Shown: positions 28,245-34,646 of the stretch, in pieces | How the letters are laid out: every line of letters begins with the position of its first letter | Numbering within the stretch: the stretch's first letter is position 1 | NCBI RefSeq assembly: GCF_013317235.1 | Contig: NZ_WLCM01000005.1 | Coordinates: forward strand, 29,146-93,145 | From: Leisingera sp. ANG59 | GTDB taxonomy: Bacteria > Pseudomonadota > Alphaproteobacteria > Rhodobacterales > Rhodobacteraceae | Direction: 5' to 3' | Length of the DNA stretch: 64,000 bases | Translations under genes and position numbers: made by a program | Notes under the pieces: model-generated | Seen by the model: the letters and a program-made list of their open reading frames with translations, nothing else | The model's database searches: none | What the model was told of the DNA's origin: nothing

Positions 28245-28274
28245 TGTGATCACAGCAAATAATTAGTGATCACA
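28245..28274 (-). promoter_or_regulatory. Paired GTGATCAC palindromes upstream of sdhC
   Basis: TGTGATCACA (28245-28254) and AGTGATCACA (28265-28274) share the perfect core GTGATCAC. Their centres are 20 bases apart and the nearer core begins 117 bases upstream of the sdhC ATG. A matching pair precedes sucC. The binding protein is unknown; the paired layout suggests a dimeric regulator bound cooperatively. Confidence 0.7.
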
Positions 28275-28322
28275 AAACCTGCGGTTGGAAATTTTTTACA
28301 GAATCACAAGGCAATCTGCAAA

Positions 28323-29024
28323 TCATTGCAAAGCCGCGGGCCGCTGGGCCGCCTGCGGCGGCAGTGCCGCAGTCTGCCGCGCCACCTCCCGCACCAGCTT
28401 TTTGCGGATGCGCGCCGGGTAGTCGGCAAAGCTCGAAGCAGAAACCACAAAGGCCCCCTCGCCGCGGATCACATTCTCAAAGAAATAGGCGGTCAGATCC
28501 GGCTCGCTCTGCTCGATGGCAATGGCATTCACCGTCACACCCGCCTCTGCCAGCGCCGCATGCGCCGCGCGCGGCTCAACCCCTTCGTTGGAGAACCCGT
28601 CGCCGGACATATCGATCACCCGGCGCTTGCAATGCTCCACGGCCGGGAACTGCTCCAGTCCCAGGAACAGCGCCTCCCCCACCGCGGTGGAGTAATTGCG
28701 CCAGGGCCTTGGTGCCTGCTCAATCGCCCGCGCCAGCGCTTCGACATCTCCGAAGGTCCGGATCTCCGCCCAGGGCAGCGTCACCTCCTGGCGCGACTCC
28801 CCGGACCACTGCATCAGCAGCACCTGGGCGCGCGCCTTAACCAGCGCCTCGGACACTACCCCGTCGCGCAGCCCTGCCGCCAGCCCGTCCATCTGAATGC
28901 GGTATTCATCGGCATCGACAGAACCGGAAACATCCACCGCCAGCACCAATGCCAGATCGCAGGCCGCCGTTCGCAGCGGCCAGAGGGAGAGCATGGAGAA
29001 TACCAGAAGCTGCAAAACCCGCAT
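28323..29024 (-). CDS. DUF1194 protein with von Willebrand factor A-like domain
   Basis: The 233-residue protein has a signal peptide (MRVLQLLVFSMLSLWPLRT, then AAC) and a vWA-like domain with the metal-ion-dependent adhesion motif ALVLAVDVSGSVDADEYRIQ (DxSxS). RRVIDMSGDGFSNEG follows later in the domain and resembles the second MIDAS-type loop. It is the DUF1194 pattern. The protein is probably periplasmic or surface-associated and binds Mg or Mn; the partner is unknown. It lies downstream of mch on the same strand, about 120 bases away, and is not obviously linked to it. Confidence 0.82.
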   Translation of the reverse strand: MRVLQLLVFSMLSLWPLRTAACDLALVLAVDVSGSVDADEYRIQMDGLAAGLRDGVVSEALVKARAQVLLMQWSGESRQEVTLPWAEIRTFGDVEALARAIEQAPRPWRNYSTAVGEALFLGLEQFPAVEHCKRRVIDMSGDGFSNEGVEPRAAHAALAEAGVTVNAIAIEQSEPDLTAYFFENVIRGEGAFVVSASSFADYPARIRKKLVREVARQTAALPPQAAQRPAALQ

Positions 29025-29145
29025 GCCGCCAGCTTAAGCGGCAATCGCGCGGCGGGTCATCACAATTCTGCCAGCCCCGGCTGATCCGGTTCAAAATATT
29101 CCAGGGCTGAGCAGGCACAGCTTGCGAGGGGAAAGCCCCTTCAGG

Positions 29146-30177
29146 TCACTTCGGCATCAGCGCCCAGTAGTCCAGGTCGAGCAGCACATCGGGGAGGTAC
29201 TTGCCGTCCTCGCCCTTCAGCTCAAATGGCGCGCCGCCCTTGGTCGCCACCAGCCGCAGCCGGATCGCACCGACGCCGGATGCCGCGGTGTCGGCTTTGT
29301 CCAGCACCTCGGACCAGGCCCGGACCGTCAGTCCCGACAGGCAGGGGTTGGCATGCGCTCCGCCGTTCAGGCCGACGATCATCTGCGCGTTGGCAAGCCC
29401 GTTGAAGCTAAGCGTGCGCGCCATCGAGATCACATGGCCGCCATAGATCAGCCTTGTGCCGTCCGGGCGGGCGGTATTGTCGAAATGCACCTTGGCGGTG
29501 TTCTGCCACAGGCGGGTCGCCATCATGTGTTCGGCTTCCTCGATGGTGACGCCATCCACATGGTCGATCGTCTCGCCGACCTCGTAGTCGCCCCAGCGGT
29601 GCGGCTCGCCGGCCAGAGTGAAATCGTAGTTGCTGAAATCCAGCCCCGCCGGGATCACCAGCTGCTCCGCCGGGATCACCTTGTTCAGCTCCGGGATCAC
29701 CGTCTCCGGCGCCGGGGCATTGAGGTCGCGTTTGCGCACCATCACCCAACGCACGTATTCCATCACGCATTCGTCGCGCTGGTTCAGCCCGCGGGTGCGC
29801 ACATAGACCACGCCGGACTTGCCGTTTGAATTCTGCTTGAGCCCGATCACCTCGGATTCCGAGCGCAGCGTGTCGCCGGGATAGACCGGCAACAGCCAGC
29901 GCCCCTCGGCATAGCCGAGGTTCGCCAGCGCATTCAGGGAGATGTCCGGCACCGTCTTGCCGAACACCACATGGAAGGCCGCCAGATCATCCAGCGGCGC
30001 CGAAGGCAGACCACAGGCCCGGGCAAATTCATCCGAAGAATAGAGCGCATGGCGCGCCGGGTAGAGCGCGTGGTAGAGCGCCCGCTCGCCGCCCGATACC
30101 GTGCGGGGCACCGCGTGGCGGATCACCTCGCCAACGGTGTAATCTTCGAAAAACCGGCCCGGATTGGTCTTGGCCAT
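29146..30177 (-). CDS. mch: Mesaconyl-CoA hydratase (double MaoC-like)
   Basis: The 343-residue protein has two hot-dog/MaoC-like halves. The first opens GRFFEDYTVGEVIRHAVPRTVSGGE. The second contains the region around THVHFDNT-like TAKVHFDNTARPDGTRLIYG and GGHVISMARTLSFNG. The overall length and sequence match the Mch of the ethylmalonyl-CoA pathway, which converts mesaconyl-C1-CoA to beta-methylmalyl-CoA. mcl2 is nearby on the same strand, and the start overlaps the preceding DUF1737 gene by one base, so the group is an operon. Confidence 0.92.
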   Translation of the reverse strand: MAKTNPGRFFEDYTVGEVIRHAVPRTVSGGERALYHALYPARHALYSSDEFARACGLPSAPLDDLAAFHVVFGKTVPDISLNALANLGYAEGRWLLPVYPGDTLRSESEVIGLKQNSNGKSGVVYVRTRGLNQRDECVMEYVRWVMVRKRDLNAPAPETVIPELNKVIPAEQLVIPAGLDFSNYDFTLAGEPHRWGDYEVGETIDHVDGVTIEEAEHMMATRLWQNTAKVHFDNTARPDGTRLIYGGHVISMARTLSFNGLANAQMIVGLNGGAHANPCLSGLTVRAWSEVLDKADTAASGVGAIRLRLVATKGGAPFELKGEDGKYLPDVLLDLDYWALMPK

Positions 30178-30380
30178 CAGTGTTCTCCCAGTTTGGTCTC
30201 AGGGGTGTAGGTTCCGTCCACTTCCTTCACCACCGCCTGGCCGCAGCGCATGATCCCCTTGACGGGATCAAAGGCCTGGGTCGGGCTGCCGTGCAGCTCC
30301 CAGCCCTTGTTCAGCGCATCGGTTACCTTGTGGCAGAAGGCAGAGGTGTCGTCCTCGGACAAAAATCTGTACAGTTTCAT
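30177..30380 (-). CDS. DUF1737 small protein
   Basis: The 67-residue protein (MKLYRFLSEDDTSAFCHKVT, then DALNKGWELHGSPTQAF) matches the DUF1737 domain. Its core has alternating helix and strand and a conserved WxLxGSP segment. Its stop overlaps the mch start (TGATG), so the two are co-translated. It is very likely a partner or regulator in the local operon; no biochemical role is known to me. Confidence 0.85.
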   Translation of the reverse strand: MKLYRFLSEDDTSAFCHKVTDALNKGWELHGSPTQAFDPVKGIMRCGQAVVKEVDGTYTPETKLGEH

Positions 30381-30402
30381 GGCTTCCTATCCTGCTCAGG
30401 GC

Positions 30403-33339: not shown

Positions 33340-33495
33340 CCGCCCTCCGAAATGCCCAGATTACAGACGGTTTAGCGGTATCAGCACGGTATACACAAGC
33401 ATACAGCGCCGAATGCCGCAGCGCAGAGCCCTTGCACGGCACGGTTTTACGCCGTAGGCATCAGGAAATTTCAACCGGACCGGAGACATTTTCCA

Positions 33496-34458
33496 ATGGC
33501 ACGACCCAAAATCGCCCTCATCGGCGCAGGTCAGATCGGCGGCACCCTCGCACATCTCGCAGCCCTCAAGGAACTGGGCGACGTCGTACTCTTCGACATC
33601 GCCGAAGGCATCCCCGAAGGCAAGGCGCTGGACATCGCAGAATCCGGTCCCTCCGAGGGCTTCGACGCCTCCCTGAAGGGCACCCAGTCCTATGAGGACA
33701 TCGCAGGCGCCGACGTCTGCATCGTGACCGCCGGCGTGCCGCGCAAGCCGGGCATGAGCCGCGACGACCTGCTGGGCATCAACCTCAAGGTGATGAAATC
33801 CGTAGGTGAAGGCATCCGCGACCACGCGCCGGACGCTTTCGTGATCTGCATCACCAACCCGCTGGACGCGATGGTTTGGGCCCTGCGCGAATTCTCCGGC
33901 CTGCCCCATAACAAGGTCTGCGGCATGGCCGGCGTGCTGGACTCCGCCCGCTTCCGCCACTTCCTGGCCGAGGAATTCGGCGTTTCCATGAAGGACGTCA
34001 CCGCATTCGTTCTGGGCGGCCACGGCGACACCATGGTGCCGTCGGTGCGCTACTCCACCGTTGCAGGCATCCCGCTGCCAGACCTGGTCAAGATGGGCTG
34101 GACCACCCAGGAGCGCCTGGACGCCATCCTGCAGCGCACCCGTGACGGCGGCGCCGAGATCGTCGGCCTGCTGAAAACCGGCTCCGCCTTCTATGCGCCG
34201 GCCACCTCCGCCATCGAAATGGCCGAGGCCTACCTGAAAGACCAAAAGCGCGTGCTGCCCTGCGCCGCCTATTGCGACGGCGAGCTGGGCGTCAAGGACA
34301 TGTATGTCGGCGTGCCCACCGTGATCGGCGCCGGCGGCATCGAGAAGGTGGTGAACATCCAGCTGAACGAGGAAGAGCAGGCGATGTTCGACAATTCGGT
34401 CAACGCCGTGAAGGGCCTGGTCGAGGCCTGCAAAGGCATCGACGCCTCGCTGGCCTGA
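33496..34458 (+). CDS. mdh: Malate dehydrogenase
   Basis: The 320-residue protein is a lactate-dehydrogenase-like MDH. Its NAD motif is [17 protein letters not shown] at residues 5-21, followed by [16 protein letters not shown], the substrate-arginine region [15 protein letters not shown] near residue 152, and catalytic His in [15 protein letters not shown] near residue 176. It interconverts malate and oxaloacetate in the TCA cycle. A short leader with GGAGACATTTTCC precedes the ATG. A strong terminator follows, so mdh is transcribed apart from the sucC operon downstream. Confidence 0.97.
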
Positions 34459-34484
34459 GGCCCGCAGCACCCGGAAATCAGAGA

Positions 34485-34512
34485 GGCCCGCTTCCGGCGG
34501 GCCTTTTCTTTT
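34485..34512 (+). terminator. Intrinsic terminator after mdh
   Basis: GGCCCGC (34485-34491) pairs with GCGGGCC (34497-34503) around TTCCG and is followed by TTTTCTTTT. Confidence 0.88.
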
Positions 34513-34616
34513 GCCGCGGCGCCACCGCTCCTGCGGCTGCCGCTTTTGATCCATGATGCGGCGGGCGCAGCCCTTGGGTCCCGGCTCGAATCACCCGCAT
34601 CAAGGCTTTGTTAATT

Positions 34617-34646
34617 TGTGATCACACCCCCAAAACCCGTGATCAC
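34617..34646 (+). promoter_or_regulatory. Paired GTGATCAC palindromes upstream of sucC
   Basis: TGTGATCACA (34617-34626) and the core GTGATCAC (34639-34646) lie 21 bases apart centre to centre. The nearer core ends 114 bases before the sucC ATG. The layout matches the sdhC pair. The rest of the mdh-sucC gap to 34760 holds the mdh terminator and a leader with CCTTTAACACTTGGCTTTAA, but no other clear site. Confidence 0.7.

Follow-up and report, generated by a model that had tools for sequence, protein, structure and literature searches.

AkgR of Rhodobacter sphaeroides is reportedly a GntR-family regulator described by Imam et al. in 2015, and RSP_0981 of that species is presumably the same protein. 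The sites of AkgR, an activator, include the palindromic 8-mer GTGATCAC (2019, PMC6365646), and for RSP_0981, a GntR factor, the predicted targets are sucCD, sdh and the 2-oxoglutarate dehydrogenase genes (2015, PMC4344238). The stretch of DNA analysed here, 64,000 nt from Leisingera sp. ANG59 (hereafter the window), shares this 8-mer with AkgR of R. sphaeroides (PMC6365646) and carries it as pairs upstream of sdhC and sucC, and the paired operons, sdh and suc/2-oxoglutarate dehydrogenase, match the predicted targets of RSP_0981 (PMC4344238). An earlier note on this DNA (the original prediction) had proposed a TCA-cycle regulator; such a regulator would not be new, given that the word is already among the AkgR sites (PMC6365646) and the targets are already predicted for RSP_0981 (PMC4344238). 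Regulator, word and targets are known from R. sphaeroides, and the window very probably contains the same system. From sequence comparison, we consider it highly likely that each pair serves as a tandem operator for AkgR, a GntR/FCD regulator, which would activate sdh and suc from upstream.

Two further described regulators are close enough to be compared. PS417_07240, a GntR protein of the Pseudomonas simiae deoxyribonate cluster, has a conserved GTGATCAC at -47 to -40 of its own predicted start codon, but it belongs to a different cluster, has one described site and is 32% identical to AkgR (PMC6365646). CceR (RSP_1663), a LacI-family regulator of central carbon metabolism, has been assigned sdh and mdh as predicted targets in R. 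sphaeroides, but its predicted site, GTT-N6-8-AAC, is unlike GTGATCAC (PMC4344238). The fixed two-turn pairing and the apparently helix-phased promoter distances presented below are absent from the passages on AkgR and RSP_0981 in PMC6365646 and PMC4344238, although the primary AkgR paper may describe them.

Tandem palindromes upstream of sdhC and sucC

Six copies of GTGATCAC are present in the window, comprising the four paired copies in Table 1 and single copies at 6694 and 37185, the former within a stretch read from the DNA as an ABC-transporter permease and the latter inside sucD. The 8-mer is self-complementary, contains GATC, and has half-sites that abut with no spacer. The four paired copies lie where the original prediction had located them, apart from a stated start of 28245, which is one base early, and the spacings within the pairs (start to start) and the gaps to the start codons of sdhC (ATG at 28128, minus strand) and sucC (ATG at 34761) are confirmed as given in Table 1. 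The same source had seen no pair before sucA, and sucA indeed has none of its own in the window, a probable reason being its place within the gene string starting at sucC. This string is taken from the sequence to form an operon; it is encoded, together with mdh, on the plus strand, and sdhCDAB on the minus strand.

The pairs are real and occur far beyond chance. Dinucleotide shuffling of the window (100 shuffles) gave a mean of 0.83 copies of GTGATCAC and never six, and among all 256 palindromic 8-mers, GTGATCAC is the only one with copies 15-45 bases apart in the window; 150 Markov-simulated windows contained zero such GTGATCAC pairs. A search of the whole genome (5.33 Mb, 108 contigs) for pairs of the 8-mer, as had been proposed, located exact pairs with a gap of 10-16 at three places, namely sdh, suc and the inside of a coding frame read as folC. 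The ten-base form TGTGATCACA is found at six places in the genome, namely sdh, suc, a regulator gene designated L111, and three places read as coding.

Conservation of the pairs in related loci

Conservation was assessed in 80 named Rhodobacterales loci, the best of 533 relatives, which had been picked by similarity of the SdhC protein and not of the promoter. An exact pair lies within 350 bp before sdhC in 77 of the 80 loci, with a spacing of 21 in 66 and of 20 in 11, and the three exceptions have a pair with one mismatch (L068), a single site (L081) and no site (L085). The start of sucC was identifiable in 65 of these loci. At least one exact site precedes it in every one of the 65 and an exact pair in 64, the remaining locus (L071) having one mismatch; counting this one-mismatch pair, the spacing is 21 in 63 and 20 in 2. 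The absence of a pair before mdh, also noted originally, extends to the relatives, as the 72 loci in which the mdh start could be located served as a control and contain no pair and one single site. The outer flanks of the pairs (TTT before, AAA after) are mostly better conserved than the inner ones, most clearly at sucC, and therefore the pair reads as one composite palindrome.

Co-occurrence with a GntR regulator gene

The genome of the window contains 18 matches to the FCD domain. One of the corresponding genes, L111, encodes a protein with GntR and FCD domains (Table 1) and is located on a different contig from sdh and suc in this assembly. The distribution of this gene was compared with that of the exact pair in a set of 150 family members that represents each genus by a single genome, with L111 orthologues accepted to an E value of 6e-82 and the best rejected match at 1e-47; this co-occurrence was computed for the L111 orthologue. 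A strong L111 orthologue is present in 135 of the 150 genomes, and an exact pair likewise in 135: both are found in 133 genera, neither in 13, the gene only in two (G035, G139) and the pair only in two (G018, G105). The association has a Fisher p of 6e-15, a value that ignores kinship, and a reversed-pattern control was found 0 times in all 150 genomes. In the genomes with neither, sdhC was found in 12 of 13, and in all 12 the 330 bp preceding it are free of exact sites.

A tree of SdhA was built from 27 of 30 chosen genomes; no SdhA was obtained from G018 or from G106, the latter one of the 13 genomes with neither gene nor pair, and G035 was omitted as split. The label requires seven changes on this tree, or three when the count is confined to well-supported branches, and gene and pair never go opposite ways, the independent pairs on this tree being too few for significance. 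At the level of the class, a set of 289 genomes includes five members of the same family, all of which have both pair and gene, whereas outside the family the pair occurs in 5 of 284 genomes and a strong L111 orthologue in 0 of 284. Three of these five outside pairs are read as lying in coding frames and two (G161, G276) lie beside a TonB receptor gene.

The L111 gene also carries a copy of the palindrome. A single exact GTGATCAC ends 8 bases before its ATG, and a conserved TTGACC lies 12 nt upstream. All 30 of the best-scoring L111 orthologues have one exact GTGATCAC beside the start, and with two further loci added the site is present in 31 of 32, in 27 of which it lies 8-10 bp before the first in-frame ATG and after the conserved TTGACC. 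Taken as a -35 element, TTGACC would place the palindrome over the spacer and -10 element and the transcript start near the ATG, which suggests autorepression of AkgR through a site overlapping its own predicted promoter. Among the 18 FCD genes of the genome, L111 is the only one with an exact site in this start-adjacent position, and L099 and L115 have exact copies further upstream (428 before the FCD domain in the former; 633 and 1233 in the latter). The best match of L111 to a solved structure by sequence is McbR of Escherichia coli (4p9f; E 1.4e-21, residues 22-214), the regulon of which differs from that of AkgR.

The L111 product is most likely the AkgR of this genome, and the original prediction of a regulator of the tricarboxylic acid (TCA) cycle is strongly supported by sequence footprinting, by co-occurrence with one GntR gene, and by the site beside that gene in many relatives. 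Several observations pull the other way. The pair is carried without the gene in G018 and G105, both of which are fragmented assemblies, with the contig of G105 ending inside sucC. When 15 gene-bearing genomes were checked at sdhC, nine had an exact pair, four had none (G083, G109, G123, G149), one had a pair with one mismatch (G035), and one had its sdh locus cut off (G139), sucC also not being found in the last. These features provide plain candidate explanations for the four discordant genomes. The site beside the gene is not universal, as it was found in exact form in 5 of 20 hand-picked lower-scoring or syntenic orthologues, and the rigid promoter-plus-site pattern was found in 5 of 16 such genomes, where its matches are confined to the L111 orthologue. 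Lastly, we infer that L111 is an orthologue of RSP_0981 from motif, family, targets and rough position. As to position, RSP_0981 is numbered near RSP_0962-0976 (PMC4344238), and in 17 of 40 genomes compared, the genome of the window included, no more than 20 kb separate the L111 orthologue from a pair.

Predicted promoter geometry and proposed mode of action

Putative promoter elements of sdh and suc are listed in Table 1. The sdh -35 element was sought as [GT]TGAC at offsets of 50-100 from the proximal palindrome in 78 paired regions, the window included. Exactly one match was found in 72 of these regions, and all 72 lie at 65-68 (47 loci), 77-79 (13) or 86-88 (12); of the other regions, four have none and two have two candidates each, with hits at 53 and 92. 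The -35-like element of the window belongs to the nearest of these clusters, the one with 47 of the 72 loci. The best quick tree (68 labelled rows) requires seven changes between the phase classes, and well-supported branches force two to three per class. On an SdhA tree of these relatives, the row nearest to the window is Leisingera sp. ANG1, which is 100% identical. For sucC, 38 of 38 TATA hits between 50 and 100 fall at 68-69 (5) or 78-80 (33); at the offset of the TATTGA of the window (80), many other sucC loci have TATA, and a generic scan preferred another place in the window.

If the sdh -10 element is set 22 bases after the -35 element, one ladder of -10 positions spans both operons at approximately 68, 79, 89, 100 and 109, and therefore a bound pair would face the promoter from one side. 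Pooling both operons gives an R of 0.87, whether the period is set to 10 or 10.5, with the two operons approximately 0.9 bp apart in phase. When distinct offsets were drawn at random 20,000 times, the observed phasing value was never reached. The distances from pair to promoter are suggestive, in an indirect way, of whole helical turns at both operons. The strength of this pattern is reduced by several considerations: the draws ignore kinship and treat neighbouring offsets as independent, the pooled periods of 10 and 10.5 fit equally well, the promoter positions are guessed from consensus sequences, and TATA is missing from 50-100 in at least 27 of the 65 paired sucC regions. In addition, the generic sigma-70 scan is mostly phased at sdhC but scattered at sucC, for which the phasing relies on the TATA count.

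In the proposed mechanism, two AkgR dimers would sit side by side, one on each palindrome, and a spacing of 20 or 21 bp, two helical turns, would therefore place both on one DNA face. This agrees with the stacked dimers of the original prediction in geometry, in both the two-turn spacing and the mostly better conserved outer flanks; the binding itself belongs to the predicted part, and we infer dimer binding, cooperativity, activation and autorepression from sequence. The proximal dimer would lie approximately 75-120 bp before the transcription start if the -10 guesses hold, and the AkgR pair would activate the sdh and suc promoters through contact with RNA polymerase. Contact from upstream is proposed as the reason that the distance from pair to promoter seems to change only by whole turns, and the poor -35 elements read at both promoters fit activation by AkgR. 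The ligand may be 2-oxoglutarate or a linked signal or related acid, judging by the name and targets of the regulator, and the single site beside the akgR start would let AkgR shut off its own promoter in this genome and in many, although not all, relatives.

Activation from upstream in the style of a class-I activator is most likely by analogy. Repression of sdh and suc by AkgR bound at the pairs is unlikely: repressors are common among GntR/FCD proteins, and the predicted promoter of akgR is overlapped by that gene's own site, but a considerable distance separates the pairs from the predicted core promoters downstream, and a pair-to-promoter distance that varies in turn-sized steps is what upstream contact would suit. 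AkgR is, moreover, termed an activator in the published description of its sites (PMC6365646). Our confidence is evenly balanced on a broader proposal, in which a fixed tandem operator is combined, at both sdh and suc, with a promoter distance that evolves by whole turns only, face-specific contact with polymerase reaches to approximately 120 bp, and gain of the tandem recruits TCA-cycle genes. The helix-phased ladder gives a direct test of how a GntR activator reaches RNA polymerase.

Alternative binders of the pairs

The pairs could instead be bound by a different GntR/FCD paralogue, or by an unrelated regulator that uses the same word, with L111 merely sharing it. In 146 of 150 genera, the L111 orthologue and the pair are present or absent together, which makes this improbable, slightly more so than repression, even though the site beside L111 orthologues is not universal and two other FCD genes among the 18 in the genome have the exact word upstream at a distance. 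The word is also used by the GntR regulator of the Pseudomonas deoxyribonate cluster (PMC6365646), and the two pairs beside TonB receptor genes, one of which adjoins a GntR gene, occur in another family. Against this, six loci of 36-42% relatives were inspected and five have no exact site upstream of the gene in the available stretch; the sixth, L229, which is from outside the family, has an exact site 60 bp before the match.

CRP, FNR and CceR do not fit as the binding protein. The original prediction that GTGATCAC resembles neither an FNR nor a CRP site is borne out by the consensus sequences: the half-sites abut and lack the 6-base spacer of the CRP consensus TGTGA-N6-TCACA, and the sequence does not match TTGAT-N4-ATCAA, the consensus of FNR/FnrL. 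CceR was rejected as the binder, as GTGATCAC lacks GTT-N6-8-AAC, and a CceR operator beside the sdh pair was rejected as well, as no more than 3 of 78 loci have GTT-N6-8-AAC at offset 18 downstream of the pair.

The two pairs beside TonB receptor genes (L213 from G161 and L214 from G276) are from another alphaproteobacterial family and have GTGATCAC copies 22 and 21 bp apart, respectively. Use of the tandem form may extend beyond AkgR.

Reach of the regulon

Of the 150 genomes, 15 have no exact pair, 29 have one, 99 have two, 5 have three and 2 have four. Among 30 pair loci that were inspected, 28 are at sdhC or sucC, upstream of the gene, one precedes fumC, and one, with a spacing of 18, is in a coding frame. 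A regulator-free role for the palindromes, as a repeat, a methylation target or a structural element, which a self-complementary word with GATC might imply, is very improbable given these counts, the fixed spacing, and the absence of the pair together with one regulator gene.

By sequence, exact pairs mark a small, focused set of genes leading from 2-oxoglutarate to succinate, fumarate and, once, malate. The regulon may be wider than the exact pairs through weaker sites. At the fumC locus of one genus (L164, G037:C16:228293-228321), two perfect copies of GTGATCAC, spaced 21 bp in tandem, precede the gene, which encodes a class II fumarase. This extra pair is a difference from AkgR of R. sphaeroides, and fumC has apparently been recruited into the regulon in that genus. 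Across the family, which includes roseobacters, bacteria abundant in the sea, the oxidative segment of the TCA cycle from 2-oxoglutarate to fumarate appears to be under one regulator with one strict, searchable architecture.

Features of the locus and neighbouring genes

Table 1. Positions of the palindromes, predicted promoter elements, target genes and candidate regulator gene (window coordinates unless stated otherwise)
Feature	Position	Strand	Basis
GTGATCAC, sdhC-proximal copy, 117 bases before ATG	28246..28253	-	exact word count
GTGATCAC, sdhC-distal copy, 20 bp from proximal copy, start to start	28266..28273	-	exact word count
GTGATCAC, sucC-distal copy	34618..34625	+	exact word count
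GTGATCAC, sucC-proximal copy, 114 bases before ATG, 21 bp from distal copy	34639..34646	+	exact word count
Predicted -35-like GTGACA, sdh promoter, offset 68 from proximal palindrome	28180..28185	-	consensus scoring
Predicted -10-like TAAAAC, sdh promoter, 16 nt from -35	28158..28163	-	consensus scoring
Predicted -10-like TATTGA, suc, offset 80 from proximal palindrome	34719..34724	+	reading of sequence
sdhCDAB, target operon (sdhC at 28128 to sdhB at 24741)	24741..28128	-	open reading frames (ORFs), NCBIfam
sucC, glycosyltransferase-25 ORF, sucD, sucA, sucB, two short ORFs, lpd: target gene string	34761..45117	+	ORFs, families
L111, candidate AkgR gene, 218 aa, outside the window	G000:C43:326156-326809 (locus L111:1240-1896)		PF00392 + PF07729 (GntR + FCD)

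In three inspected genomes (L254 from G046, L255 from G009 and L256 from G053), an AkgR-type gene adjoins sdhB or lies near lpd and has no exact site near its start; in two of these, sucC is at the far end.

The glycosyltransferase family 25 ORF (PF01755; 35967-36794, plus strand) that sits between sucC and sucD is an odd insertion. Directly upstream of sdhC is a gene for a DUF1194/vWA protein (PF06707; 28323-29024, minus strand), and an additional GTGATCAC is found approximately 250-300 bp before some sdhC genes. In Roseobacter and Roseovarius loci (L045, L047), this extra far-upstream copy falls in the vWA/DUF1194 reading frame, in an F-V-I-T-A stretch, and it was taken as coding and rejected as an operator; in the Sulfitobacter locus L037, the extra copy has no clear fit to that frame. 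In Ruegeria (L053, L059 and others), a third exact GTGATCAC lies at approximately -200 from sdhC, 56-57 bp upstream of the distal site, and in L053 and L059 it follows the stop of the vWA/DUF1194 gene.

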